Below the pieces are notes generated by a model. It made no database searches. It saw nothing but the letters and a program-made list of their open reading frames with translations, and was not told where the DNA came from. The translations under genes and the position numbers were made by a program. 33,919 nucleotides of DNA, taken from Bacteroidales bacterium. GTDB lineage: Bacteria; Bacteroidota; Bacteroidia; Bacteroidales; P3. This document shows positions 16,931-31,049 of this stretch, in pieces (the first letter of the stretch is position 1; every line of letters begins with the position of its first letter). The stretch is taken from positions 1 through 33,919 of the forward strand of contig JAKSMQ010000022.1 of assembly GCA_024400565.1 (NCBI GenBank), read 5' to 3'.

Positions 16931-17031
16931 ATAGAGTCCATATAGCGTCCACATAAAGTCCATATAGCGTCCACCCGGAGACCGATTTTGCGACGCTAAG
17001 TGGACGCTAAGTGGACTCTATGTGGACGCTA
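16931..17031. repeat. REP-like inverted array of GCGTCCAC repeats (second copy)
   Basis: The left arm (16931-16973) holds ATAGAGTCCA, then ATAGCGTCCACATAAAGTCC and ATAGCGTCCAC. The right arm (about 16991-17031) holds the complementary GACGCTAAGTGGACGCTAAG, then TGGACTCTAT (17012-17021) and GTGGACGCTA. The order of sub-units mirrors that of 235-383. The arms would form a hairpin of about 40 bp around a short centre. CTAGGTGCTG-like short repeats trail to about 17060. It lies between the TonB receptor and a lipoprotein gene. Confidence 0.78.
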
Positions 17032-17114
17032 GGTGCTGCCTAGGTGCTGTCTAGGAGCTGGCATCTGGGATGTGGCAGGGGCTGATGGCCGATGGCGGGC
17101 GAGAAGAAAAAATA

Positions 17115-17881: not shown

Positions 17882-18259
17882 ATGAGAAAGGTACAATCAT
17901 TAGCTGACTTACAGTCTTTGCGTGATGAGTTCCGTGCTGAGTTTTGCCCTGCCGATGTGAAGAAGGTGCAGGTGAAAATCGCCATGGCTACTTGCGGCAT
18001 TGCTGCTGGAGCAAAACAGGTGATGAACCACATGGTAGAGAAATCCAAGGAGCTCGGCCTCGACATCGATTTTACTCAGGCAGGCTGCATGGGCTACTGC
18101 TATGCTGAACCCACCCTCGAGGTAAGCGTTCCCGGACGCGAATCTGTAGTATTCGGCTACGTGGACGAAACCCGCGCCGACGAGATTCTTACCAAGTATA
18201 TCCAGAACAATGAGCTGGTAGAAGGAATTATCCCCGTTAATTACGAAACCACCGACTAA
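17882..18259 (+). CDS. hndB: Thioredoxin-like [2Fe-2S] ferredoxin, HndB-type hydrogenase subunit
   Basis: 125 residues. It has the thioredoxin-like [2Fe-2S] fold seen in HndB of NAD(P)-linked [FeFe] hydrogenases. The four cysteines are C22, C38 (ATCGIAAGAKQ, the typical HndB loop), C69 and C73 (GCMGYC). A helical N-terminal part precedes the fold. It is the first gene of the operon, 17 bases before hydB. In family context it passes electrons within the NAD-linked hydrogenase complex in the cytoplasm. Leu and Val codon use is strongly biased in this and the next three genes, consistent with high expression. Confidence 0.88.
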   Translation: MRKVQSLADLQSLRDEFRAEFCPADVKKVQVKIAMATCGIAAGAKQVMNHMVEKSKELGLDIDFTQAGCMGYCYAEPTLEVSVPGRESVVFGYVDETRADEILTKYIQNNELVEGIIPVNYETTD

Positions 18260-18276
18260 ACACACATTTTCTTAAT

Positions 18277-20073
18277 ATGGCAACATACAATAAGCATATT
18301 CTGGTTTGCGGTGGCAGTTGCTGCACCAGTGGCAACAGCGCCCAGATTGCAGATAATTTCAAAAGCACCCTCGCCGAAAAGAATCTGAGCAACGATGTTC
18401 AGGTAATCCAGACCGGATGCTTCGGCTTGTGCGACCAGGGCCCCGTAGTAAAGATTATGCCCGACAATACTATCTACACCCATGTTAAACCTAACGATGT
18501 AAGAAGAATTGTCGAAGAGCATATCGAAGGCGGCAAGAAGGTTGAAGACCTCCTCTATGTCAACCCCATTACCGGCGAGCGCGTAGAGGATAACAAAGAG
18601 CCCAACAAGTTCCATAAGAAACAGATCCGTATCGCTCTCCGCAACTGCGGCGTTATCGACCCCGAAAATATCAAGGATTATATTGCTCACGACGGTTACA
18701 TGGCTTTGGCCAAGTGTCTTACCGAATACACCCCCGAGCAGGTTATTGAGGTGGTTTCCGCTTCAGGCCTCAGCGGCCGTGGTGGCGCAGGTTTCCCCAC
18801 CGGCAAGAAATGGGCAAGTTCCGCCCGTGCCAAGGCTGACCAGAAATACGTAGTCTGCAATGCTGACGAAGGTGACCCTGGCGCATTTATGGACCGTTCC
18901 ATCCTCGAAGGCGACCCCAACAGCGTACTCGAGGCTATGGCTATCTGCGGCTATGCCATCGGCGCAGACAAGGGTCTTATCTATATCCGTGCCGAGTATC
19001 CTCTCGCTATCGAGCGTCTCAAGATTGCTATCAGCCAGGCTGAAGAGATGGGCCTCCTTGGCGACAATATCATGAATAGCGGCTTCAATTTCCATATCGA
19101 GCTCCGCTATGGTGCCGGCGCATTCGTATGTGGCGAGGCTACCGCTCTTATCCACTCTATGGAAGGCAAGCGTGGCGAGCCCACCTTCAAACCTCCACGA
19201 ACCAGCGAGAAGGGCTACAACCTCAAGCCCACCAACGTAAACAATGTTGAGACCTATGCCAACGTGCCTATCATCATTACCAAGGGCGCAGAATGGTTCA
19301 GCAGCATCGGAACTGCAAACTCAAAGGGTACCAAGGTGTTCGCTCTTGCCGGCAAGGTAAACAATGTAGGTCTTATCGAGGTTCCTATGGGTACTACCCT
19401 CCGCGAGATTATCTACGAAATCGGCGGCGGTATCAAGGACAACAAGAAGTTTAAGGCTGTTCAGACCGGCGGTCCTTCAGGCGGATGCCTTACCGAGCGT
19501 CATCTTGACATTCCTATCGACTATAAGTCACTTACCCAGGCTGGCTCTATGATGGGCTCTGGCGGTATGGTTATCATGGACGAAAGCTCCTGTATGGTCA
19601 GCATCGCCAAGTTCTATCTCGATTTTACCGTTCCTGAGAGCTGCGGAAAGTGTACTCCCTGCCGTATCGGTAACAAGCGTCTCTATGAGATGCTCGACAA
19701 GATTACCAAAGGCAATGGTACAATGGAAGATCTTGAACATCTGCGCAACCTCAGCGTAGTCATCAAAGATACCGCTCTCTGTGGTCTCGGTCAGTCTTCA
19801 CCCAACCCCATTCTCTCTACCCTCGACAATTTCTGGGATGAGTACGTAGAGCATGTTCAGGACAAGAAATGCCGTGCAGGTGCCTGCAAGGACCTCGTTC
19901 AGTATGAGATCAATCCTGCCGTATGTGTCGGATGTACTGCATGTTCGCGCAACTGCCCCGTTGAGGCTATCAAGGGTGAACTCAAGAAACCCCACCAGAT
20001 TGACAACAGCATCTGCATCAAGTGCGGTACCTGTATTACCAAATGTAAGTTTAACGCAATTCGAATCAAATAA
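18277..20073 (+). CDS. hydB: NAD-linked [FeFe] hydrogenase subunit HydB/HndC (NuoF-like)
   Basis: 598 residues. Domains in order: thioredoxin-like [2Fe-2S] module (about 1-90; C11, C15/C16, C48, C52); NuoF core with FMN/NADH motifs GRGGAGFPTG (168-177) and NADEGDPGAFMDR (195-207); SLBB-like region (about 350-430); NuoF [4Fe-4S] ligands C456, C459, C462 and C502; and a C-terminal 2[4Fe-4S] ferredoxin (C550/C553/C556/C560 and C580/C583/C586/C590). This is the arrangement of HydB of the Thermotoga-type bifurcating hydrogenase and HndC of Desulfovibrio. It oxidises or reduces NAD(H) at FMN, the proposed bifurcation site. hydA starts 11 bases downstream. Confidence 0.96.
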   Translation: MATYNKHILVCGGSCCTSGNSAQIADNFKSTLAEKNLSNDVQVIQTGCFGLCDQGPVVKIMPDNTIYTHVKPNDVRRIVEEHIEGGKKVEDLLYVNPITGERVEDNKEPNKFHKKQIRIALRNCGVIDPENIKDYIAHDGYMALAKCLTEYTPEQVIEVVSASGLSGRGGAGFPTGKKWASSARAKADQKYVVCNADEGDPGAFMDRSILEGDPNSVLEAMAICGYAIGADKGLIYIRAEYPLAIERLKIAISQAEEMGLLGDNIMNSGFNFHIELRYGAGAFVCGEATALIHSMEGKRGEPTFKPPRTSEKGYNLKPTNVNNVETYANVPIIITKGAEWFSSIGTANSKGTKVFALAGKVNNVGLIEVPMGTTLREIIYEIGGGIKDNKKFKAVQTGGPSGGCLTERHLDIPIDYKSLTQAGSMMGSGGMVIMDESSCMVSIAKFYLDFTVPESCGKCTPCRIGNKRLYEMLDKITKGNGTMEDLEHLRNLSVVIKDTALCGLGQSSPNPILSTLDNFWDEYVEHVQDKKCRAGACKDLVQYEINPAVCVGCTACSRNCPVEAIKGELKKPHQIDNSICIKCGTCITKCKFNAIRIK

Positions 20074-20084
20074 GTTATCAAGAT

Positions 20085-21857
20085 ATGGAAAATATGATAA
20101 CCCTCACTATAGACGACCGCCAAGTAACCGTGCCCAAAGGCACAACTATCCTCAAGGCCGCCCGCAGCATTGGTATCGAGATTCCTACCCTTTGCCACTA
20201 CGAACTCAAGGGACAGGGCGTTGAGAACCGTCCCGGCAGCTGTCGCGTTTGCGTTGTAGAGGTAGAAGGCAAATCCAACCTTGCCGCTTCCTGTGCTACC
20301 AACGTTTCTGAAGGTATGGTAGTCCGTACCAACAGCCTCCGCGTCATTATGGCTCGTCGTACCGTTGTAGACCTCATGCTCTCTGACCATCCCGCTGATT
20401 GCCTTATCTGCCCCCAGAGCGGCAACTGCGAGCTTCAGAAACTGGCTAACGACCTCGGCCTCCGCGATATTACCTATTCAGGAGAACAGTCTAAGAATAA
20501 AGTTGAAATCTCTCCCGCTATCATACGCGACGAGAACAAGTGTATCATGTGCCGTCGTTGCGAAACCGTATGTAACAGCCTTCAGACCGTAGGTGCCCTT
20601 ACTGCTGTTAATCGTGGTTTCGGAGCTGTCGTTTCCACCTCCTTCCGCATGAATCTTGAAGATACCTCATGCGTTATGTGCGGCCAATGTGTACAGGCTT
20701 GTCCCGTAGGAGCTCTCAGCGAGGTTAACAACACCCGTCAGGTGATGAGCGCCATCGCTAATCCTCGTAAGAAAGTTATCGTTCAGACCGCTCCTGCTGT
20801 TCGCGTAGCCCTTGGCGAAGAGTTCGGTATGGAACCCGGTTCACGCGTTACCGGTAAGATGGTTACCGCCCTCAAGAAGATGGGCTTCGACTATGTGTTT
20901 GATACTGATTTTGCAGCCGACCTCACTATCATGGAGGAAGGAACTGAGATGCTCGACCGTATCGCTCGCTTCATGAAGGGTGACAAGAGCGTTAAGCTTC
21001 CTATCATGACCAGCTGCTGCCCCGGTTGGGTTAACTTCTTTGAGACCAACTATCCCGACATGCTCGATATTCCTTCTACCGCTAAGAGCCCTATGCAGAT
21101 GTTCGGCGCTATTGCCAAGAACTATTGGGCAGAGAAGATGGGTATCAAGCGCGAGGACCTCGTAGTAGTTTCCATCATGCCTTGCGTAGCAAAGAAATAC
21201 GAGTGTCAGCGCGACGAGTTCAAGGTTGACGGTAATCCAGACGTAGATTACTCTCTCACTACCCGCGAGCTTGCAGATATGGTCAAACTTCTTGGCGTTA
21301 AGTTTGAGGATCTTCCTGACAGCGACTTTGACAAGCCTCTCGGCGAGAGTACAGGTGCTGCAGTTATCTTCGGCGCTACTGGTGGCGTAATCGAGGCTGC
21401 AACCCGTACCGCTTACGAAATCTTCACCAAGAAGGAACTCGGCAAGGTAGAATTTACCGAACTCCGTGGTCTTGAAGGTGTACGTGAAGCTACTGTTGAC
21501 TTCGACGGAACTCCTATCCATATCGGTATTGCTCATGGTCTTGGCAACGCCCGCAAACTTCTCGACAAGGTACGTGCAGGCGAAGCTCAGTTCCACGCTA
21601 TTGAGATTATGGCATGTCCTGGTGGTTGTGTAGGTGGCGCAGGTCAGCCCTACCATCATGGCGACTTCAGCAAGGTTGAGAAACGTCTCCAGGCTATCTA
21701 CGAAGAAGATCGTGAGAAACCTATCCGTAAGAGTCACGAGAATCCTTATATCCAGCAGCTCTACAAAGAGTTTCTTGGCGAACCCTGTGGCGAGAAGGCA
21801 CATCACCTGCTCCATACCCACTATTTCGACAAGAGCGAGAAGAAATTCGGTATCTAA
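20085..21857 (+). CDS. hydA: [FeFe] hydrogenase catalytic subunit HydA/HndD, group A
   Basis: 590 residues. N-terminal NuoG-like [2Fe-2S] domain (C37, C53, C56, C70), a His-Cys3 [4Fe-4S] motif (H102, C106, C109, C115) and a 2[4Fe-4S] ferredoxin (C153/C156/C159/C163; C196/C199/C202/C206). The H-cluster domain has L1 TSCCPGW (309-315), L2 MPCVAKKYE (365-373) and L3 MACPGGCVGGAGQP (509-522). The glutamates of the proton path (EEGTE, 284-288) are kept. The C-terminal small-subunit-like segment (NPYIQQLYKEF) is fused. All H-cluster cysteines (C312, C367, C511, C515) and the proton-relay C311 are present, so it should be active in H2 formation or oxidation. Confidence 0.97.
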   Translation: MENMITLTIDDRQVTVPKGTTILKAARSIGIEIPTLCHYELKGQGVENRPGSCRVCVVEVEGKSNLAASCATNVSEGMVVRTNSLRVIMARRTVVDLMLSDHPADCLICPQSGNCELQKLANDLGLRDITYSGEQSKNKVEISPAIIRDENKCIMCRRCETVCNSLQTVGALTAVNRGFGAVVSTSFRMNLEDTSCVMCGQCVQACPVGALSEVNNTRQVMSAIANPRKKVIVQTAPAVRVALGEEFGMEPGSRVTGKMVTALKKMGFDYVFDTDFAADLTIMEEGTEMLDRIARFMKGDKSVKLPIMTSCCPGWVNFFETNYPDMLDIPSTAKSPMQMFGAIAKNYWAEKMGIKREDLVVVSIMPCVAKKYECQRDEFKVDGNPDVDYSLTTRELADMVKLLGVKFEDLPDSDFDKPLGESTGAAVIFGATGGVIEAATRTAYEIFTKKELGKVEFTELRGLEGVREATVDFDGTPIHIGIAHGLGNARKLLDKVRAGEAQFHAIEIMACPGGCVGGAGQPYHHGDFSKVEKRLQAIYEEDREKPIRKSHENPYIQQLYKEFLGEPCGEKAHHLLHTHYFDKSEKKFGI

Positions 21858-21934
21858 ACTATAGAATAGGGTAGGGAAACTCCCCCTATCCTATAGTCTA
21901 ATAGCTCATAATTTACTCAAAACTGAAAGAAACT

Positions 21935-22411
21935 ATGTCACATATAGAAATAAATGCTGAAAAGCTGAATATTATCAAGGATATTTGCGCTCAGTACGAC
22001 AATCGTCCCTCCGATGTTATTCATATTCTGCACGGCGTTCAGGGCGCTCTTGGCTACCTCCCTATGGAAGTTCAGGAAGCTATCGCAAAGCAGTTGGGAA
22101 TCCCCGTATCGCGCGTTTACGGTATCGTTACCTTCTATTCCTTCTTTACTATGGAGCCCAAGGGTGAGCACCCTATTTCAATCTGCCTCGGTACCGCCTG
22201 CCATGTTCGTGGCGCAGACCAGATTCTCGAGGAGTTCAAGCGCGTTCTCGGTATCGGCGTAGGTCAGACTACCCCCGATGGTAAGTTCTCTATCGATTGC
22301 CTCCGTTGCGTTGGCGCCTGTGGACTTGCTCCCGTAGCAATGATTGGCGAGAAGGTTTATGGCCGTCTCACACCCAATATGGTAACAGGTATCATTGAGG
22401 AATACAACTAG
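21935..22411 (+). CDS. hydC: NAD-linked [FeFe] hydrogenase subunit HydC/HndA (NuoE-like)
   Basis: 158 residues, standard for NuoE-like proteins. A helical N-terminal domain (IIKDICAQYDNRPSDVIHIL, GALGYLP) precedes a thioredoxin-like [2Fe-2S] domain with ligands C84-x4-C89 (CLGTAC) and C125-x3-C129 (CVGAC). GIPVSRVYGIVTFYSFF is the conserved NuoE stretch. It relays electrons between HydB and HydA. It lies 77 bases after hydA, a wider gap than the others in the operon. It ends with TAG and is followed by a terminator. Confidence 0.95.
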   Translation: MSHIEINAEKLNIIKDICAQYDNRPSDVIHILHGVQGALGYLPMEVQEAIAKQLGIPVSRVYGIVTFYSFFTMEPKGEHPISICLGTACHVRGADQILEEFKRVLGIGVGQTTPDGKFSIDCLRCVGACGLAPVAMIGEKVYGRLTPNMVTGIIEEYN

Positions 22412-22436
22412 CATATACCTCTATACAGCAAACGAT

Positions 22437-22464
22437 AAGGGCAACCCCATTTGAGGTTGCCCTT
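22437..22464. terminator. Terminator of the hydrogenase operon
   Basis: AAGGGCAACC (22437-22446) and GGTTGCCCTT (22455-22464) form a perfect 10-bp stem with an 8-base loop, 25 bases after the hydC stop codon. The tail GTTAGTTG is only moderately T-rich. The stem may also block transcription from the convergent operon. Confidence 0.85.
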
Positions 22465-22549
22465 GTTAGTTGAATGCCTTGTTCGTTGAATGAGAGAAGA
22501 AGACCTCCCATTTTAGAGAAGCCTTCTTTCGTAATCTCAACTCATAATA

Positions 22550-22578
22550 AGGAGATTCCAATGTATGAATTGTCTCCT
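22550..22578 (-). terminator. Probable terminator of the minus-strand hydrogenase operon
   Basis: AGGAGA (22550-22555) and TCTCCT (22573-22578) form a 6-bp stem 19 bases after the stop codon of the group B hydrogenase; on the minus strand TATTATG follows. A further GAAGAAG/CTTCTTTC pair lies at about 22496-22530. Confidence 0.45.
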
Positions 22579-22597
22579 GATTATGAATCGTCTCAAG

Positions 22598-24049
22598 TTA
22601 TTTCTTTTCGTTCTCGAGGCTAAGTTTGTAGAGTTTAACCGAGTTGTCAATAGTCTTTTCTTTGGCAGCTTCTCCATATTTGTCAACGTCGGCTACATTA
22701 CGAGGACCATGAGTGATGGAGAGAGGACCATTGATACAGCCACCATCACAGGCCATACCCTCAAAGAAGTTCTCGGTAGCACGATTGAGTTTGAGGCGCA
22801 TAAGAGCCGCACGGCATTCGTCTATACCATTCATCTGGCAAGTCTTCAGACCCTCAACTCCCATTTGTTTTGCAACATCGTTAACGCCTTGAGCAATACC
22901 ACCACTCTTGGCGAAGATACGTCCATAGAAGGAAGCATTATCAAGTTCGGAATCTTCGCATTGGGTATCGTCAATACCACGTGCATCAAGGAAAGCCTGA
23001 AGCTCTTCAAACGACATAACGCTGTCAATCATACCCTGAGTCTTCTCAAGTTTGAATTCCATCTTCTTAGAAGCACAAGGTCCGATAAAGATAACCTTTG
23101 CATTGGGGTCGGAACGCTTAATCAGCTTAGCGGTCTCAACCATAGGAGAAACAGAATGGGAGATATATTTCACCAAATCAGGGAAATTCTTCTCAACAAA
23201 AGCTACAAAGGAAGGACAGCACGAGGTGGTAAGAATTTTTTTCTCTGCCCATTCGTTTGCTTCATGGTAAAGAGTAATATCTGCACCAAGAGCAGCTTCA
23301 ACAACCTGATAGAAACCGAGTTTCTTGATAGCGCTGACTACCTGTTCAATTCTTGCTGAACGACATTGTCCTACAATTGCTGGAGCAATAACAGCATAAA
23401 CATGATATTTCTTGTTTTCTTCGCTCTTCTTGAGAATATCAATGATATCAAGGATGAGAGATTTATCGGTAATAGCACCAAAGGGGCATTTGTAGACGCA
23501 AGCGCCGCAGGAGATACATTTGTTGTTGTCGATCTGAGCCTTCTTATCATCGTCAATACTGATAGCTTTTACTTTGCAGGCTACCATACAGGGACGCTTT
23601 TGGAGTATGATTGCAGAGTAGGGACAAGCCTTAGTACACTTTCCACATTCGATACATTTGCTCTTGTCTACAACAGCATGGTGGTCAATTATGGTGATTG
23701 CATCTTTAGGACAAGCGTCCTTGCAAGCATGGAGCATACAGCCACGACAGGCAGGGGTGACATAGATGCCATCGGCGGGGCATTCGTCACAAGCAGTATA
23801 CATGACCTCTACGGGGTTTTCGTTGTCCTTATGGCCACCCATAGCCATTTTGATTCGGTCCTGCATAATAGCACGCTCTTTGTAGATGCAGCAACGTACA
23901 GAGGGCTTGGGACCTGGAGCGATAATCTTGGGTATCTCAAGGTAAGCGTCCTCAAGACCTCCCTCATAGGCTCGGCGTATCACTTCTTTCAGTACCTGAT
24001 ATTTGATGTACTGAACTGTTGTGTCGAATAATCGGTTATTTTGTGGCAT
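22598..24049 (-). CDS. [FeFe] hydrogenase, group B-like, with multiple ferredoxin motifs
   Basis: 483 residues. The N-terminal half is crowded with Fe-S motifs: C87/C90, C101/C104/C109/C113, C132/C135/C138/C142, C154/C158 and C178/C181/C184/C188, enough for about four [4Fe-4S] clusters. The H-cluster domain has L1 TSCCPSF (275-281), L2 IGPCASKKME (322-331) and L3 MACDGGCINGP (432-442). These loop variants fit the uncharacterised group B rather than bifurcating group A. Both L1 cysteines (C277, C278) are kept, so catalysis is plausible. There is no NuoG-like [2Fe-2S] domain and no PAS domain. It is the last gene of the rex operon, 51 bases after the phosphatase. Probably a ferredoxin-linked monomeric enzyme (inference). 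Confidence 0.92.
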   Translation of the reverse strand: MPQNNRLFDTTVQYIKYQVLKEVIRRAYEGGLEDAYLEIPKIIAPGPKPSVRCCIYKERAIMQDRIKMAMGGHKDNENPVEVMYTACDECPADGIYVTPACRGCMLHACKDACPKDAITIIDHHAVVDKSKCIECGKCTKACPYSAIILQKRPCMVACKVKAISIDDDKKAQIDNNKCISCGACVYKCPFGAITDKSLILDIIDILKKSEENKKYHVYAVIAPAIVGQCRSARIEQVVSAIKKLGFYQVVEAALGADITLYHEANEWAEKKILTTSCCPSFVAFVEKNFPDLVKYISHSVSPMVETAKLIKRSDPNAKVIFIGPCASKKMEFKLEKTQGMIDSVMSFEELQAFLDARGIDDTQCEDSELDNASFYGRIFAKSGGIAQGVNDVAKQMGVEGLKTCQMNGIDECRAALMRLKLNRATENFFEGMACDGGCINGPLSITHGPRNVADVDKYGEAAKEKTIDNSVKLYKLSLENEKK

Positions 24050-24100
24050 ATTTAATTGTATGTTGGATGTATGTGATTATTTTGGTTTATTTACAGGCAA

Positions 24101-25273
24101 TTAGTCATAGTTGAGCACTACTTGTTTACCCATCAGTTGTAGGTTCTGTGCCAGGCGCTCAACAAGTTTTAGTTTCATAGTAATGTCGATAGGAAGCCCT
24201 TGATGGGCAGCATTGACGCTTTGGCCCACAAAGAAGGTTATATGAGTGGCTTCTTCAAAGAGAATGTTTGCCAAAAGTGAGGCTCCATCGCGTTTGGTAA
24301 AGGTCTTGGGTGAGAGATCTGTTACAGAAAGATATCGCTCGCTTAATTCCAATAGTCTGCGAAGAGTGATGACCCCTTCGGTAGTAAGATCTATTCCATC
24401 AATGAATCCAATGGGGGGAACATCGCGGTCTGGGAATTCAAAACTGGTTTTGACACTAGTGCCTAGATGGCGAGCAACAATCTGCGAACTGGTTCCGCCA
24501 CAAACAATCTTTTTACCTTCTCCTTCTAAAAACTGGCTTACGTAGAAGTTGTCTTTCTCCTTGTCGACAGGAGGCCCAACCATAAGGTTTACATTGAGTC
24601 TCGGTCGTAATTTTACAGCTGCTACAGTAGTATCATCGCCCGGTTTGTCAAGATAGAGGTCGTTGCAAGCCGAAGCAAAGAGACAGGCAATTGCTCGAGC
24701 CGACATGGTAGGAACAACGCTACGATTAAGATGTGCCATAATAGCCTCGCGGTCCCATCCGAAGTTGAGTATCATGCCAATTCCGGCATGAATGGTTCCG
24801 TCGCTCATCACAATCACCACGTCGTCTTCTTTAAGGTGCAGCTGGCTGCGGTAAACTGTCTTGTCGCAGATAAGAAGTTCTTCCCGTTCCAGGTCGTGGC
24901 ATTGGCCATTGTGGTAGAGTATGGCCTGGGGATTGTCGAACTCGATGAGGGTCCCTTCTCCCTGTGTGTTGACATGGATAATGCTAAAGGTAGAATAGGC
25001 TACACCGCGTTCGCGGCATACGGGGAGGGTCTGAATGATTGTCTCAACGCATTCTTCGATATCAATCTCGTTCGAAGCCATCGTACAGAGAATCTTCGAG
25101 GTGAGGGTCGATAATATGTTGGCCTTCACTCCGCTTCCCAATCCGTCGGCAAGTACCAAGGTGGTATAGTCGCCCAAGGTGGTAGCCTCTACCTTATCTC
25201 CGCAGAGTTCCTCTCCTACATGGTTGCACGAGGTGTATCCATATTCCAGGCAATATTCCTTCATCTTGCTCAC
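24101..25273 (-). CDS. SpoIIE/PP2C-type phosphatase linked to sensory hydrogenase
   Basis: 390 residues. The N-terminal SpoIIE/PP2C domain (about 10-222) has the metal-binding motifs LADGLGSGVKAN (D43), MSDGTIHAG (D158) and PGDDTTVAAV (D213, D214). The C-terminal domain (about 226-390) begins LNVNLMVGPPVDKEKDNF and has no fold I recognise, although GKKIVCGGTSSQIVARHLG suggests a nucleotide- or ligand-binding pocket. The start is a GTG at 25273 overlapping the hydS stop (TAGTG, one shared base); an ATG three codons later (25264) is an alternative. Such tight coupling implies that the hydrogenase and phosphatase act together. SpoIIE-type enzymes dephosphorylate Ser/Thr proteins such as anti-sigma antagonists. 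The target here is unknown. Confidence 0.9.
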   Translation of the reverse strand: MSKMKEYCLEYGYTSCNHVGEELCGDKVEATTLGDYTTLVLADGLGSGVKANILSTLTSKILCTMASNEIDIEECVETIIQTLPVCRERGVAYSTFSIIHVNTQGEGTLIEFDNPQAILYHNGQCHDLEREELLICDKTVYRSQLHLKEDDVVIVMSDGTIHAGIGMILNFGWDREAIMAHLNRSVVPTMSARAIACLFASACNDLYLDKPGDDTTVAAVKLRPRLNVNLMVGPPVDKEKDNFYVSQFLEGEGKKIVCGGTSSQIVARHLGTSVKTSFEFPDRDVPPIGFIDGIDLTTEGVITLRRLLELSERYLSVTDLSPKTFTKRDGASLLANILFEEATHITFFVGQSVNAAHQGLPIDITMKLKLVERLAQNLQLMGKQVVLNYD

Positions 25274-26970
25274 TATTTTTCTTCGCTTAATTGATGTTTC
25301 AGTTTGAGAAGAGCAACCTTCGTTTCAGCAGTAGTTTCGCCAAGGAGAGATGCTATCTCTTGGGCTACACGCATCTGCTTCTTTATGACTGCATCTGTGG
25401 TGGCTAGGGTGTCCATCTTCACTTGGTTGATCTGCTTTTCGTAGTTAACGGCTTCGGTCACATCTTGCATAATGCCGAATAGTACATTCTGACCTTCAAG
25501 ATAGTTGACACTAAGGTTGATGTATTTCTTTGTAGCAACAATAAACTGTTGTTTTGACTCGGTGTGACGTTTGCGCGTAAGGGCAAGTACAAAGTCGGTA
25601 GGATTAAAGAACTTGGATGCAGGATATCCCTTCACGTTGGGGTCGTCAATACCTAGAAGTTCACAACCTTTATCGTTTATTTCCACAATATTCATATCGG
25701 AGTCGAGAACTATTATTCCCTCGGGACTGGCTTTGATAATTTCATAGCTCAGCGACTCGGCACGTTGGCGCATATAGGGCATACATATCTCAATCTCGCT
25801 ATAGCCATTGAATACAGCCCAGGCTTTTTGTCGGCAAGTCTCATATCCGCAGGCGCCACAGTCAAGTTCGTCCTCTTTCGAGAATTTACCTGTTTTGTGC
25901 AGTATCTCTTGGAGATCGCGCTCGGTGGGAGTGATACTTTTGTTACGAAGACGTGGATACTCGGCTTTGATATCGATGTCGTAGTGTGGAGCAACGCTCT
26001 CGTGGAGGACGTTTTTCTCTCGGTTGACATAGTCTCGCACGTCGCTGGTCGCTTTGATGCTTCCTCCTGACTGAACAAGACTGCAAGGACCATTCACACA
26101 GGCATCTTTGCAGATATTCAACTCTATGAATACGTGGTCGAGGTATTCAATATTGTCAAGGGCATCAATACAACGGTCGTGGCCGTCAACGCTCATATAT
26201 TCATAGCCTTCGGGCAATACGTCAAACGCCTTGATGATGCCGTGGCTGATGGGGTATAGTTTCGAAAGGTTGACGCTTTCGTGCTGAGTCATAGAAGGGA
26301 TACGTGCCATCTCTTTGAGGTGGATATCTGCTTCGTCAAACCAGCATTTGAGGTCTTCAAAGGTAAGTACATTGTCGACCATTCCACACTCCGAACCTTC
26401 TCGTTTCTTGGCTATACATGGGCCGATAAACACGATGTGAGCTTCGGGAATCTGCTTCTTGATAATCTTGGCATGTGCCACCATGGGTGAGTCTACGGGA
26501 GCCAAGAAGGGGAGGGCTTTGGGATAGTATTCCTGAATGAGTCGGCAGGCGGCAGGGCAGGCAGAGGTAATAAAGTTCTTCATTGTTCCCTCTTGTAGCA
26601 GACGTCGGTATTCTTCCGTCACAGCTTGTGCTCCTATAGCCGTCTCTTGTGCGTCAACAAATCCCAGTCGTATCAGAGCCAGACGCATCGCAAGGAAGTC
26701 CTCCTGTTCAAAACTGCTGATAAACGAAGGTGCCACCGAAGCTACAACTTTTTCTCCGTTGGCGATTAGACGTTTTACCTCGGACACTTCACTATGTACT
26801 ACCTTGGCATTCTGAGGACATATCAGGGTGCAATGACCACAAAGTATGCAACGGTCTTCTATGATGCGAGCCTGATGACTCTCTACATCAATGGCCTTTA
26901 CAGGGCACTCGCGCAGACATTTGTAGCAGTCTTTGCATTTGGCATCGCGAAATTCTAAGTATTGCGCCAT
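25273..26970 (-). CDS. hydS: Putative sensory [FeFe] hydrogenase with PAS domain (group C, HydS-like)
   Basis: 565 residues. Domains: 2[4Fe-4S] ferredoxin (C12/C15/C18/C22; C41/C44/C47/C51); H-cluster domain with L1 TSACPAAC (135-142), L2 IGPCIAKKRE (182-191) and L3 NICKDACVNGPC (285-296); an RnfB-type [4Fe-4S] motif (C371, C374, C379, C396; CGACGYETC); a PAS domain (about 405-510); and a C-terminal coiled segment (about 511-565) like a signalling helix. The proton-relay cysteine of L1 is Ala137, while the H-cluster ligand C138 is kept, as reported for sensory group C enzymes. There is no kinase or GGDEF output, so the signal probably passes to the co-translated phosphatase. Confidence 0.92.
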   Translation of the reverse strand: MAQYLEFRDAKCKDCYKCLRECPVKAIDVESHQARIIEDRCILCGHCTLICPQNAKVVHSEVSEVKRLIANGEKVVASVAPSFISSFEQEDFLAMRLALIRLGFVDAQETAIGAQAVTEEYRRLLQEGTMKNFITSACPAACRLIQEYYPKALPFLAPVDSPMVAHAKIIKKQIPEAHIVFIGPCIAKKREGSECGMVDNVLTFEDLKCWFDEADIHLKEMARIPSMTQHESVNLSKLYPISHGIIKAFDVLPEGYEYMSVDGHDRCIDALDNIEYLDHVFIELNICKDACVNGPCSLVQSGGSIKATSDVRDYVNREKNVLHESVAPHYDIDIKAEYPRLRNKSITPTERDLQEILHKTGKFSKEDELDCGACGYETCRQKAWAVFNGYSEIEICMPYMRQRAESLSYEIIKASPEGIIVLDSDMNIVEINDKGCELLGIDDPNVKGYPASKFFNPTDFVLALTRKRHTESKQQFIVATKKYINLSVNYLEGQNVLFGIMQDVTEAVNYEKQINQVKMDTLATTDAVIKKQMRVAQEIASLLGETTAETKVALLKLKHQLSEEK

Positions 26971-26980
26971 GGCGAGAAGT

Positions 26981-27268
26981 TTAGATGTTGAGGAGTGGAC
27001 GGATCTGTTCGGTAAATACGCTCTCGGCGTTGTCTTTAGTTACGTTGTGAAGCAGAAATTTATCATCGCCAATTTTCTCGATGTGAGGCTCTTCAACTCC
27101 GTCTACCTGAAGGGTTACGCCATTGGCACAGTTGCCCAGGCAGAAGCTGGCTTGCAGCTCGACGAGGTCTTCTACATCGTGACGTTTCAGTATTTCTTTG
27201 AAGGCCTCAATTACATCGTAGGATCCTTTCAAGTGGCAAGAACTGCCAACACAGACTTTGATTTGCAT
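26981..27268 (-). CDS. Small thioredoxin-like [2Fe-2S] ferredoxin
   Basis: 95 residues. It is the isolated C-terminal domain of NuoE: C6-x4-C11 (CVGSSC) and C43-x3-C47 (CLGNC), the [2Fe-2S] ligands of thioredoxin-like ferredoxins, with the KGSYDVIEAF helix between. It lacks the helical N-terminal domain of HydC. It lies 21 bases after rex and 10 bases before hydS, so it probably carries electrons to or from the sensory hydrogenase or the group B enzyme (inference from position). Confidence 0.9.
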   Translation of the reverse strand: MQIKVCVGSSCHLKGSYDVIEAFKEILKRHDVEDLVELQASFCLGNCANGVTLQVDGVEEPHIEKIGDDKFLLHNVTKDNAESVFTEQIRPLLNI

Positions 27269-27289
27269 AATGTATAGTGTATAAAGTTT

Positions 27290-27985
27290 TTATTCAGATA
27301 AAGTTGATCCCTCTTCGATGAGGTGTAGCTGTAGCTGTTGAGAGAGAGCTGCCAGCGAGGCTGCCAGATTCTCGTAGCGCACCAGCACGTCGTCGGGGGT
27401 TTTGATGTGAGTGGGAGCAAAGTTCCAGATTGCCTTGATGCCCGATCTGACCATAAGGTCGGCCACCTCTTGTGCATTCTCGGCAGGCACGGTAATGATG
27501 CCGATAAGGATTCTCAGTCGCTCGGCAAGCAGAGGCAGCTGGCTCACGTGGAACACGGGCTTTCCGTTGATGTCGAGGTCTACAAAGTCGTCGTTGGCAT
27601 CAAATCCGGCCACGATGTTGAGACCACAACGCTCAAACCCCTTGTAGGAAAGAAGTGTGCGACCCAGACGTCCTACCCCCACAAGGAGTGCATCGGTAGT
27701 GTTGTCGTAGCCCAGAATTGTCGTCAGGTCGTTCATAAGGGGGGCAATCTCAAATCCCATACGGGGCTTGCCTGCCTGACGGGCCACAAAGGCCAGGTCT
27801 TTGCGCACCAGGATAGAATTCAGCTTCAGCGCACGGGCTATCTCTGTCGAGGATACATAGCAGATTCCTTGGCGTTGCTTTTCGGCAATATAGGCGTAGT
27901 AGAGGGGAAGTCTGGCTAGCATATTTTTTTGAGGAGCGGCCGACTGAAGGTTGCTTTCGGGGTGCGTTGAGTTATCTTGCGACAT
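27290..27985 (-). CDS. rex: Redox-sensing transcriptional repressor Rex
   Basis: 231 residues. Winged-helix DNA-binding domain at about 22-80 (ARLPLYYAYIAEKQRQG, VSSTEIARALKLNSILVRKD, GKPRMGFEI, all Rex signatures). A Rossmann NADH-binding domain follows with GVGRLG (103-108) and an acidic residue after beta-2 (GFDAND). A C-terminal helix for dimer swap is present. Rex leaves DNA when NADH/NAD+ rises, inducing fermentative and H2-producing genes. It heads the operon rex-ferredoxin-hydS-phosphatase-hydrogenase, so it probably regulates itself and the facing hydABC operon. The N-terminal 20 residues are polar and could be shorter if ATG22 (MLARLP) is used. Confidence 0.95.
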   Translation of the reverse strand: MSQDNSTHPESNLQSAAPQKNMLARLPLYYAYIAEKQRQGICYVSSTEIARALKLNSILVRKDLAFVARQAGKPRMGFEIAPLMNDLTTILGYDNTTDALLVGVGRLGRTLLSYKGFERCGLNIVAGFDANDDFVDLDINGKPVFHVSQLPLLAERLRILIGIITVPAENAQEVADLMVRSGIKAIWNFAPTHIKTPDDVLVRYENLAASLAALSQQLQLHLIEEGSTLSE

Positions 27986-28256: not shown

Positions 28257-28598
28257 TTATTGTTTGTCGCGGTTGTAGGTGGGACAGTCGGCAGGAATCT
28301 CAATCTCAAACTCTATCAGTCCGCTCACTTCGCCGCCTGGCTCGGCAAACCAGGGGGTGTGATGGATGAAAAAGTGTTTGCTGTTGTGGATAATCTGGTA
28401 AGAGTTGCTCATACCGGTCTCCATCATATGGCGTATTTTTTCGGCCGATTTTGCTCCGTGGCAGTTGAATAGATTCTTGCCTCTTACCTCGCCGTCGCGC
28501 TTGCGTGCTATAGCATTCTGATAGAGCACGATGCCCTCTTTGTCGCATACTGTAGCGGAGAAAGCCGCGTTTTCCAGATAGTCGAACGTCTGCTTCAT
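28257..28598 (-). CDS. PAS-domain protein
   Basis: 113 residues forming one PAS-like domain: FDYLENAAFSATVCDKEGIV, LYQNAIARKRDG, then GKNLFNCHGAKSAEKIRHMM and HHTPWFAEPGGEVSGLIEFE. The NLF.CH....EKI..M pattern and the ending (G..E....IP) resemble the PAS domain of DUF438-type proteins. There is no output domain. The conserved Cys46-His47 could hold a cofactor (inference). Its ATG overlaps the previous gene by 4 bases (ATGA), so the pair is co-translated. It lies upstream of the rex operon on the same strand. Confidence 0.75.
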   Translation of the reverse strand: MKQTFDYLENAAFSATVCDKEGIVLYQNAIARKRDGEVRGKNLFNCHGAKSAEKIRHMMETGMSNSYQIIHNSKHFFIHHTPWFAEPGGEVSGLIEFEIEIPADCPTYNRDKQ

Positions 28599-28858
28599 AT
28601 TGTCAATAGTTTATTCAGTTTGTCGTCATTTATTATCTTGGGCTGGGCTTTGCCAGCAAGAATAAGAATCTTCTTGCCGTTGCGGTAGATGTGTAACTGC
28701 CTGCTACGAACCACGGCTGTCAACTCCTCGTCTGCTTCAATGGCATTCCATATGGGGCTATACACCCCGTCGGGCTCGAAGAGTTTCTTCTTGAGATGCG
28801 AACACATATCTGATGTATCAATGTTCATCCGTTCTTTCTGTTGGAGAGTCTGTTGCAC
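28595..28858 (-). CDS. Short hypothetical protein upstream of PAS gene
   Basis: 87 residues, or 77 if the in-frame ATG at 28828 (MNIDTSDM) is used. The sequence looks like a compact soluble domain (FEPDGVYSPIWNAIEADEEL, VVRSRQLHIYRNGKKILILA, KAQPKIINDDKLNKLL). I do not recognise the family. It overlaps the PAS gene by 4 bases, which supports it being real. It could be a truncated version of a longer protein, since it stops immediately after a conserved-looking motif. Confidence 0.6.
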   Translation of the reverse strand: MQQTLQQKERMNIDTSDMCSHLKKKLFEPDGVYSPIWNAIEADEELTAVVRSRQLHIYRNGKKILILAGKAQPKIINDDKLNKLLTI

Positions 28859-29249: not shown

Positions 29250-31049
29250 ATGCATCTTAAGCCCGGAACTCTCCTTCAAGGAGGCAAATATCAGATTGTA
29301 CGCCATATCAGTAGTGGCGGTTTTGGCAATACCTACGAATGTATGTTTCCAGCTATGGGAATTCGTGTTGCTATCAAGGAGTTCTTTGTGAATGACTTCT
29401 GCAACCGCGACGAGCGAACCAATCAGGTAACTGTAGGAACGCAAAGTAAATGTCATTTGGTGGAGAAACTCCGCAAGAAGTTTGTCGACGAAGCCCGTGC
29501 CATCAACTCTATGCATCACGATAATATTGTACGGGTTTCCGATATCTTCAGCGAGAATAATACCGAGTATTATGTGATGGATTTCATCGACGGCTGTTCG
29601 CTACACGATATGCTAAAACAATGTGGCTCATTCAACGAAACTGACGCCTTGATTTATATCAGACAGGTCTGCGACGCCCTTCGCTACATCCACAGCCTGA
29701 ATCGTCTGCATCTCGACATCAAGCCGGGTAATATCATGGTGGAAGCCAAGAGCAACAAGGCTATTCTGATCGATTTTGGGGCCAGCAAGCACTATGATGA
29801 TGCTACGGGAGAGAACACATCAACCCTCTTGGGCGTCAATACTCCAGGATATGCTCCTCCCGAGCAATATAGTGGATTTTCGCAGTTTACCCCTTCGGCA
29901 GATATTTATGCCGTGGGTGCTACGCTCTACAAGTTGCTCACAGGGGTGACTCCGCCCCAGTCTGTTCTGATAAGTGCCGGCGAGAAAGAGCTGCCCCCTC
30001 TCCCTTCAGCCATATCCAGAGCTACGAGCCATGCTGTGTATGTGGCTATGGAATCGAGAAAGAGTAAGCGTCCGCAATCTGTCGACGACTTTCTTGCTTT
30101 GCTCAACAACACAAGCGAAGATGATGCCACTATCATCGAAGGCGAGCCTATGCGTCCGGAGCCTCAGACCATCGTTACCGGCATTTCCGATACAATACCC
30201 TCCGATAGGGTAGACGAATATGGGAAAAAGGAGCCCAAGAAAAAGAAAACACTTTTGTTCCTTTTAATAGGAGTCTTTATCGCAATTGCGGCGGCCGCAG
30301 TCTATTTTCTTACAAGCAGCAAACCAGACGTTGTCTCTCCAGAATTGGACGAAGTACGGACTATCTTGGTTAATGGAGTAGATTTCGATATGATCAAGGT
30401 CGAAGGTGGCACGTTTACTATGGGAGCTACTAACGAACAGGTGGCTGAGGCAGAGGGTGATGAGTATCCGCTTCACGAGGTTTCCCTCTCCACCTTCTAT
30501 ATCGGCAAGACCGAGGTCACTCAGGCTCTATGGAAGGCTGTTATGGGTAATAATCCCAGCGCAACAAAGGGCGACAACTATCCTGTCGAGACTGTTAGTT
30601 GGGCCGACTGTCAAACCTTCATTCAAAAGCTGAACGCCCTCACGGGCATGCATTTCCGTCTGCCAACCGAGGCAGAGCGCGAGTATGCCGCAAGAGGCGG
30701 ACAGAAGAGTCGCGGCTACAAGTATGCCGGCAGCAACTATCTCAACGAAGTGGCTTGGTATAGAGATAATAGCGGCAATCATTCTCATCCCGTGGCTACC
30801 CGACAGCCCAACGAGCTGGGTCTCTATGATATGAGCGGTAATGTATGGGAATGGTGCCAGGACTGGATGGGTATGTATAGAAGCGAAGCCCAGACCAACC
30901 CTACCGGCCCCGGCTCGGGCTCCGACCACGTGAGTCGTGGAGGCAGTTGGCGCAACTATGCTGATTTCTGTCGCGTGTCGCGTCGATGCTACGGAAAGAC
31001 CGATCTCAGCGGCAACCTTCTGGGCCTCCGTCTGGTCTTGGAACCCTAG
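29250..31049 (+). CDS. Membrane-anchored Ser/Thr protein kinase with C-terminal FGE/sulfatase-modifying-factor domain
   Basis: 599 residues. Kinase domain at about 12-285: glycine loop ISSGGFGNTYE (20-30), Lys43 (VAIKEF), catalytic loop HLDIKPGN (154-161, Asp156; Leu instead of Arg, a non-RD kinase), DFG at 175-177 and APPEQY. A polar linker precedes one membrane helix (about 334-355). The outside part (about 375-599) is a formylglycine-generating-enzyme-like domain: FDMIKVEGGTFTMG, IGKTEVTQALWKAVMG, LPTEAEREYAARGG, YDMSGNVWEWCQDW, RGGSWRN and LGLRLV. The catalytic cysteine pair of true FGE is not evident, so this domain is probably a sensor. It signals from the periplasm to a cytoplasmic kinase and may oppose the nearby PP2C enzyme (inference). 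Confidence 0.92.
   Translation: MHLKPGTLLQGGKYQIVRHISSGGFGNTYECMFPAMGIRVAIKEFFVNDFCNRDERTNQVTVGTQSKCHLVEKLRKKFVDEARAINSMHHDNIVRVSDIFSENNTEYYVMDFIDGCSLHDMLKQCGSFNETDALIYIRQVCDALRYIHSLNRLHLDIKPGNIMVEAKSNKAILIDFGASKHYDDATGENTSTLLGVNTPGYAPPEQYSGFSQFTPSADIYAVGATLYKLLTGVTPPQSVLISAGEKELPPLPSAISRATSHAVYVAMESRKSKRPQSVDDFLALLNNTSEDDATIIEGEPMRPEPQTIVTGISDTIPSDRVDEYGKKEPKKKKTLLFLLIGVFIAIAAAAVYFLTSSKPDVVSPELDEVRTILVNGVDFDMIKVEGGTFTMGATNEQVAEAEGDEYPLHEVSLSTFYIGKTEVTQALWKAVMGNNPSATKGDNYPVETVSWADCQTFIQKLNALTGMHFRLPTEAEREYAARGGQKSRGYKYAGSNYLNEVAWYRDNSGNHSHPVATRQPNELGLYDMSGNVWEWCQDWMGMYRSEAQTNPTGPGSGSDHVSRGGSWRNYADFCRVSRRCYGKTDLSGNLLGLRLVLEP

Follow-up and report, generated by a model that had tools for sequence, protein, structure and literature searches.

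A clostridial-type operon with a putative sensory [FeFe]-hydrogenase, probably acquired by horizontal transfer, convergent to hydABC in a Bacteroidales genome

The locus and its three hydrogenases

The DNA considered in this work, referred to below as the window, is a stretch of 33,919 nucleotides from the Bacteroidales genome GCA_024400565.1 (1.89 Mb in 57 contigs, 71.6% complete). It carries nine open reading frames (ORFs), four on the plus and five on the minus strand, which form two convergent sets, and their coordinates, first given in a preliminary description made from the sequence without database searches, were confirmed. The plus-strand set is a hydABC-type [FeFe]-hydrogenase operon. 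The minus-strand set, which is our main subject, consists of rex, a small [2Fe-2S] gene, hydS, a phosphatase gene and hydB1, and it is a clostridial type of operon that was probably acquired by horizontal transfer. The three matches to PF02906 in the host genome all lie at this locus. The distances between genes within both sets range from a 1-base overlap up to 77 bases, as in operons, and the facing 3' ends of the two operons are separated by 186 bases; no terminator was found between them (0 found, 0.2 expected). The genes are as follows.

17882..18259, plus strand: hndB-like thioredoxin-type [2Fe-2S] subunit, 125 amino acids, which heads the hydABC-type operon (PF01257, 20.3 bits)
18277..20073, plus strand: hydB / hndC, NuoF-type NADH and flavin mononucleotide (FMN) subunit, carrying a [2Fe-2S] domain at the N terminus and a [4Fe-4S] domain at the C terminus
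20085..21857, plus strand: hydA / hndD, group A [FeFe]-hydrogenase (NCBI A6, an NADH-dependent type; NF040763, 906 bits, cut-off 765)
21935..22411, plus strand: hydC / hndA, NuoE-type [2Fe-2S] subunit (PF01257, 174.6 bits)
22598..24049, minus strand: hydB1, group B monomeric [FeFe]-hydrogenase, HfsD-like, the last gene of the minus operon (TIGR04105, 539 bits, cut-off 450)
24101..25273, minus strand: pp2c, SpoIIE-type (PPM) protein phosphatase, HfsC-like (PF07228, 56.6 bits, cut-off 25)
25273..26970, minus strand: hydS, group C (M2f-type) putative sensory [FeFe]-hydrogenase, 565 amino acids (PF02906, PF04060 and PAS matches)
26981..27268, minus strand: thioredoxin-like [2Fe-2S] protein, 95 amino acids, with cysteines 6, 11, 43 and 47 (PF01257, 33.3 bits)
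27290..27985, minus strand: rex, NADH-responsive repressor family, the first gene of the minus operon (NF003994, 260.9 bits, cut-off 130)

The match of the hndB-like subunit is weak, being below the Pfam cut-off of 24.8 bits, and this protein shows 56% and 47% identity to same-family counterparts heading the same operon (L057, L061). The identities of HydB, HydA and HydC/HndA to the proteins of same-family genomes are 74%, 76% and 66–67%, respectively. The presence of rex, as proposed earlier, is borne out by its family match, and its product contains the NAD-binding GxGxxG motif in the form GVGRLG at residue 103; the rex ORF is separated by 21 bases from that of the [2Fe-2S] protein, with no alcohol dehydrogenase or kinase between them. 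Two of the earlier names required refinement. A phosphatase is present, but in place of PP2C it is placed more exactly in the SpoIIE branch (PF07228), and the supposed [2Fe-2S] ferredoxin is indeed a [2Fe-2S] protein, but a thioredoxin-like one (PF01257).

The preliminary description had distinguished three types of [FeFe]-hydrogenase, of groups A, B and C, in this convergent locus, and the family matches and a tree based upon the H-domains both agree with this. Of the 207 H-domains that were found, 202 were usable and were thinned at 78% identity; the tree contained 134 rows, comprised of 128 of the usable domains, the three from the window and three references, and it was constructed by a quick method that gives supports by the Shimodaira–Hasegawa-like approximate likelihood ratio test (SH-aLRT) only. 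The three hydrogenases of the window branched apart in this tree, those of groups A and B in two clades and that of group C outside both, and in no case did two of them fall in one group. HydA branched with CpI, A. woodii HydA1 and the HydA1 of 8a6t (20 rows, support 100), where it was sister to a same-family HydA (support 100). The hydB1 product was part of the B clade (34 rows, support 94), within a set of eight rows (100) that all come from copies of this operon in Bacteroidales and Clostridia. HydS branched outside the A+B set (54 rows, 98) and inside a 52-row clade (98), and the HydS rows of the type native to Bacteroidales formed two further branches (19 rows, 91; 7 rows, 92), which this tree did not join with support into one group C clade. 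The loop motifs of the three proteins are TSCCPGW (residue 309), TSCCPSF (residue 275) and TSACPAA (residue 135).

The NCBI type A6 of HydA presumably corresponds to A3 in the HydDB naming. The best solved chains for HydA are the HydA1 chains of 8a6t and 7q4v, and that for HydB is 7t2r_B, a subunit of a NiFe-hydrogenase (817 bits), followed by the HydB of an FeFe-hydrogenase, 7q4v_B (793 bits). Electron bifurcation or confurcation with ferredoxin is a possible activity of HydABC.

A fourth, shorter type of [FeFe]-hydrogenase was observed at L057:17277-18674 (+) and L069:14386-15759 (-). Its stop-to-stop frames are 458–466 amino acids long, with a C-terminal Cx2Cx4Cx16C motif and a tail too short for a PAS domain, and it resembles the 'group D' enzymes of PMC8163306. 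In the same-family genome G183 some 4 kb separate it from hydABC, and in L069 and L070 it is located beside the operon. Of 16 operon-bearing genomes, 15 have a weak PF02906 match in a frame of 455–478 codons, but there is none in the genome of the window.

Conservation and origin of the minus-strand operon

A collection of named genomes was scanned with an alignment of HydS, and the best 80 of 593 confirmed loci were analysed, genes being counted only where enough flanking DNA was present. The phosphatase gene directly follows hydS in all of the 72 testable loci, a [2Fe-2S] gene adjoins hydS upstream in 69 of 79, and a group B enzyme is found within 3 kb downstream of hydS in 55 of 66. A rex gene is present anywhere in the locus in 17 of 52 loci, adhE upstream in 22 of 52 and a kinase in 25 of 52. 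The full clostridial form has the order rex-adhE-kinase-[2Fe-2S] (often two)-hydS-phosphatase-hydB1, and L075 shows this order up to hydS. The link drawn earlier to pieces known in Firmicutes is upheld by this clostridial operon of the same kind, but the full set with Rex and the group B enzyme, which had been thought noteworthy in a Bacteroidales genome, is no novelty of that order: the minus-strand set is a clostridial kind of operon, Rex included, that is already known, and its move and its trimming are the interesting part. The results suggest that HydS and the phosphatase constitute the core sensor unit. In G306 and G307 (L073, L077) the group B match is on a different contig from hydS, and the group B gene thus also appears to be separable from the operon.

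Two further observations concern these loci. In L065:5859-7269 and L066:8672-10026, hydB1 was matched as two overlapping pieces in different frames, possibly indicating a frameshift. In L100 and L125, a clostridial-type hydS with its phosphatase is found on records titled Methanocorpusculum and Atopobiaceae, which may be either mis-binned contigs or transfers.

Among the 16 loci with Bacteroidota titles, 12 of which have at least 6 kb of upstream DNA, a kinase is found in none and adhE in five, and the ORF listings of L053, L063, L064, L066 and L068 leave no space for a kinase between the alcohol dehydrogenase and the [2Fe-2S] gene. The Bacteroidales operon is of the clostridial type minus the kinase and, in the window, also minus the alcohol dehydrogenase. 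A full AdhE was not found in the host genome, where the best match, G000:C54:45689-46906 (-) (L175), is a frame of 416 codons that shows 44% identity to the C-terminal, alcohol dehydrogenase half; it contains one internal TAG, which may reflect a broken gene, a sequence error or some other cause. As the Bacteroidales copies have no kinase, the phosphatase is the better candidate for the partner of HydS, unless a kinase from elsewhere serves. This family of loci amounts to a natural deletion series, as the kinase, the alcohol dehydrogenase, Rex and the group B enzyme are each present in some members and absent from others.

Divergent from rex, the plus strand of the window at 29250-31049 encodes a Ser/Thr protein kinase that also contains, by fusion, a GldK-like domain. 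It was considered as the missing partner kinase and rejected as a conserved component, since a search with its protein listed no match in the 10 and 80 other loci.

Bacteroidales possess HydS-phosphatase-group B sets of their own, but these are only about 28–38% identical to that of the window (e.g., in the same-family G183; L056, L058–L060). When 295 genomes of the order were sampled, a HydS similar to that of the window (at least 64% identity) was found in 4, counting the host genome itself; among the matches listed, the next best-scoring HydS was 33% identical, and the highest other identity was 44%, over a part. In the HydS tree (48 rows; 47 loci picked for spread from 113 HydS segments), the 12 operon-type Bacteroidales rows formed one clade (100/98) with clostridial rows around it, in which it was nested, whereas the 16 rows of the native type branched separately (100/99). 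A single Bacteroidales clade was rejected for HydS by the approximately unbiased test (p-AU 0.000124 without the long row L026 and 3e-15 with it), and it was also rejected, more weakly, for the phosphatase (p-AU 0.0096; 38 loci from 105, one of the rows being very long). In the Rex tree, eight operon-type Bacteroidales rows formed one clade (98/93), which was joined to the Rex of clostridial operons (81/80) and was apart from 28 other Bacteroidales Rex sequences, most of which had the top scores in a broader search. This tree omits L055 and L068, which duplicate genomes that were kept, L063, which is no duplicate, and three window copies, and L082 and L092 were dropped as short or stop-holding pieces. 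No Rex match at E 1e-8 was detected in any of three near-complete same-family genomes, and across the order a Rex match at E 1e-10 is present in 94 of 149 genomes. Among the minus genes, rex has a G+C content of 0.536 and the other four have 0.444–0.478, compared with 0.495–0.512 in hydABC. A search for direct or inverted repeats flanking the operon, as possible scars of transfer, gave only short imperfect matches.

The tree positions of the operon-type proteins, the lack of a Rex match in the three same-family genomes and the sister relationship of HydA to a same-family HydA together indicate that the minus-strand operon was probably acquired and that hydABC is native. The most likely source of the rex-[2Fe-2S]-hydS-phosphatase-hydB1 operon, with its Rex, would be Clostridia, a direction of transfer that we infer from sequence comparisons, and this suggests that a regulator responding to NADH can travel with the genes beside it. 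In the open-licence literature, as represented by titles and the starts of abstracts and with subscription papers mostly outside its scope, no published account of this transfer to Bacteroidales was recognised.

Proposed working and alternative readings

The sensing of H2, and the switch between NADH-coupled and ferredoxin-only production of it, is an unsettled matter in gut and rumen fermenters and bears upon their output of H2 and methane. For the acquired operon we infer Rex control, sensing of H2, a phosphatase target and a catalytic direction as follows. When H2 accumulates, the oxidation of NADH by HydABC would stall, and NADH would release Rex, allowing the minus operon to be expressed. 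By means of a slow H-cluster, HydS would sense H2 or its redox poise, and its Fe-S and PAS domains would relay the state of the protein to the phosphatase, whose target would be a phosphoprotein. The group B enzyme would then dispose of ferredoxin electrons as H2, with no need of NADH; in Bacteroides, enzymes of group B are producers of H2 (PMC12578642). To this reading as a whole, namely that a clostridial-type operon for H2/redox control was acquired by horizontal transfer, lies convergent to a native hydABC and works in the manner proposed, we assign a probability of roughly 0.62.

A number of observations weigh against it. In the phosphatase tree the operon-type Bacteroidales rows need two changes and do not form one clade, and most of the rows that bear on the direction of transfer are metagenome-assembled. 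These include the five clostridial neighbours closest to the operon-type clade, one of which is possibly mis-binned. A rex gene is within reach of only 6 of the 16 Bacteroidota-titled copies, from which it appears that the operon can function without a neighbouring rex. The host genome contains HydG (501.8 bits), but no HydF match above the cut-off was found in this 71.6% complete genome; as HydF is above the cut-off in five of seven compared genomes, including all three same-family ones, its absence is likely due to genome incompleteness. Searches for Rex operators employed a general Rex consensus, from which the operator in this group may differ, and in the window no site upstream of rex or hndB stood out. 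With two palindromic patterns and up to three mismatches, the window contained 9 sites versus 15.3 expected and 21 versus 14.4 expected (8/100 shuffles), and the best sites before rex and hndB matched 10/14 and 9/14 positions, values reached in 51/200 and 196/200 shuffles, respectively. Among 29 upstream stretches, two of them (L054, L068) from one genome, only L112 and L116 reached 12/14 positions (1/200 shuffles each). In T. saccharolyticum, the expression of rex increased along with ethanol, contrary to what a simple Rex model would predict, and deletion of hfsB raised hydrogenase activity (PMC5707799), which indicates that HydS may be a negative element. Sensing by HydS is also called putative in PMC8924675.

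The domains of HydS comprise two [4Fe-4S] motifs, the H-domain, an FeS domain and a PAS domain. The PAS domain is C-terminal to the H-domain (PF00989, 30.4 bits at 410-474, cut-off 22.6), and its presence rules out an assignment of HydS to group D, which is without PAS. In the TSACP loop at 135 an Ala replaces the proton-path Cys (C299 of CpI), the four H-cluster cysteines C138, C185, C287 and C291 are invariant in 14 of 14 rows, and a C-terminal Cx2Cx4Cx16C motif, which has been described for M2e/M2f enzymes (PMC8163306), begins at residue 371. When solved structures were searched by sequence, none of the chains listed bore the name HydS or sensory hydrogenase. In the phosphatase, residues D26, D43, D158, D213 and D214, which from family knowledge we take to be metal-binding, are invariant in all 26 aligned copies, and its C-terminal domain is conserved without a Pfam match. 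Cys24, which is beside a conserved Gly-Asp, and Cys86 are also invariant in 26 of 26 copies, and a redox control through them is possible.

It could be argued that HydS is no sensor of H2 but a partner of the group B hydrogenase, acting as a slow enzyme of electron transfer or redox chemistry, the work of the phosphatase being unrelated. The HydS of T. maritima has measurable activity, and it is from the PAS domain that a role in sensing has been deduced (PMC10055695, PMC8924675). However, the invariable adjacency of the phosphatase to hydS in the 72 testable loci, the Cys-to-Ala change at the proton-path position and the phenotypes of hfsB deletion (PMC5707799) make this alternative unlikely, although it deserves to be kept in view.

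In the preliminary description the two operons were regarded as one dedicated hydrogen-homeostasis module, and they may be supposed to have co-evolved as such, with Rex/HydS controlling hydABC too. Apart from the window, the two are close together in one genus (in G201 hndB is ~3 kb from rex, and in G101 hydA is ~11.5 kb from rex), in G303 (hydA and hydS 17 kb apart) and in R. bromii YE282, where hydA-hydB-hndA is convergent ~0.7 kb from the operon, and at G054:C21:12731-20739 (L055) a native-type HydS follows in one unidirectional row, rex-hndA-hydB-hydA-[2Fe-2S]-hydS-phosphatase. However, hydA/hydB is near the HydS operon in only 2 of the 80 named loci (L096, L102), or 2 of the 38 that are flanked by 9 kb or more on each side. 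Of 16 operon-bearing Bacteroidales genomes that were searched (the match positions in G301 being identical to those in G148), 15 have a group A-level match, and this is on the hydS contig in one (G303), a lower bound since the contigs are short. The supposed conservation of the two operons together is largely contradicted by these counts, and the operons also differ in origin. Their proximity recurs but it is not the rule; as a single module they appear unsupported by conservation, and we regard such a module as quite doubtful.

It is likewise only with low confidence that we put forward a more specific form of the proposed working, in which HydS acts straight on the SpoIIE phosphatase as an H2 switch that is free of a kinase (and here also of the alcohol dehydrogenase), brings its own Rex to a seemingly Rex-less family and is wired to the native hydABC. 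If this were true, cells would choose between confurcating and ferredoxin-only release of H2, and Cys24/Cys86 of the phosphatase might be the redox input.

The native- and operon-type HydS might also be old Bacteroidales paralogues inherited vertically, the clostridial copies being derived from them. The operon type does occur in several Bacteroidales groups, according to record titles and group codes, but its HydS is nested in clostridial rows and was found in only the four of 295 sampled genomes noted above, the clostridial copies represent the fuller operon, with kinase and adhE, and no Rex match is found in the three same-family genomes, so that vertical inheritance has little to commend it. 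Lastly, the joining of a clostridial contig piece to a Bacteroidales contig by assembly or binning, which could be suspected from the fragmented, incomplete assembly and the lower G+C of four of the five minus genes, is hardly credible, as the nearest operon copies are in other Bacteroidales records and genomes, one of which (G201) has the operon ~3 kb from hydABC, and the HydS of the window groups with Bacteroidales copies (100/98) and not inside clostridial ones.

The neighbourhood of the two operons contains some other features. Just upstream of rex, the minus strand at 28257-28598 encodes a small protein that weakly matches PAS_4 (21.6 bits, under the cut-off of 23.1), and it is overlapped by a small minus-strand ORF at 28595-28858; in L073 and L077, relatives of the PAS_4-like protein (37–40%) are present at a distance of ~4 kb from the operon. 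A short tandem repeat of 11 bases (GTGGAC...CTA) is located at 17000-17043, upstream of hndB and beyond a small ORF.

Comparison with known systems

The acquired clostridial-type operon was compared with other copies of the operon and, by published description, with the systems of R. albus, Thermoanaerobacterium and T. maritima. In R. bromii YE282 (L102), the order is [2Fe-2S] genes-hydS-pp2c-hydB1, with a convergent hydA-hydB-hndA set behind it, and the two operons face each other as in the window; however, its HydS is 40% identical, and the gene order of its hydABC differs, hndA coming first. The operon-type Bacteroidales copies (G101, G201, G148, L062–L068) share [2Fe-2S]-hydS, with HydS identities of 64–69%, and pp2c and hydB1 are present where the contig extends far enough. 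They differ in the genes upstream, with adhE in G101, G148, L062, L064 and L066 (L065 also has an adhE match) and an iron-type alcohol dehydrogenase in G201 and L063, whereas the gene immediately before the [2Fe-2S] gene of the window is rex; L067 has no alcohol dehydrogenase gene upstream, and its rex is at the 3' end.

The hydS-hydA2 cluster of R. albus, which reportedly also includes rex, is similar to the operon of the window. In this cluster a PAS-containing group C hydrogenase, a Ser/Thr phosphatase and a ferredoxin-only hydrogenase are co-transcribed, and this eight-gene cluster with the sensory hydrogenase was 111-fold down in co-culture (PMC6776011). A kinase adjoining the cluster has been proposed as the partner of HydS (cited in PMC5707799), and R. 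albus also has a bifunctional alcohol/aldehyde dehydrogenase (PMC6776011), whereas the window operon has no alcohol dehydrogenase or kinase and is thus not of the R. albus form. The ferredoxin enzyme of R. albus is termed group A1 (PMC6776011), but the R. bromii gene in the same place belongs to the group B clade in our tree.

The HydS of T. maritima is similarly a group C enzyme with PAS and with Ala at the position of Cys299, and it is assumed to regulate the hydrogenase gene of the same operon (PMC10055695). In hfsABCD of Thermoanaerobacterium, HfsB is a PAS hydrogenase, HfsC a serine-phosphatase homologue and HfsD a ferredoxin-linked hydrogenase, encoded in the same order (PMC11837493), and HfsD has been classed as group B (PMC8924675). 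Deletions in hfs alter the product pattern and the hydrogenase activity (PMC5707799, PMC11837493). The two differ in that HfsA has no established counterpart in the window, which has the small [2Fe-2S] gene and rex upstream, but the order hydS-phosphatase-ferredoxin hydrogenase of the window is that of hfs and of R. albus, and it is the same in the named loci.

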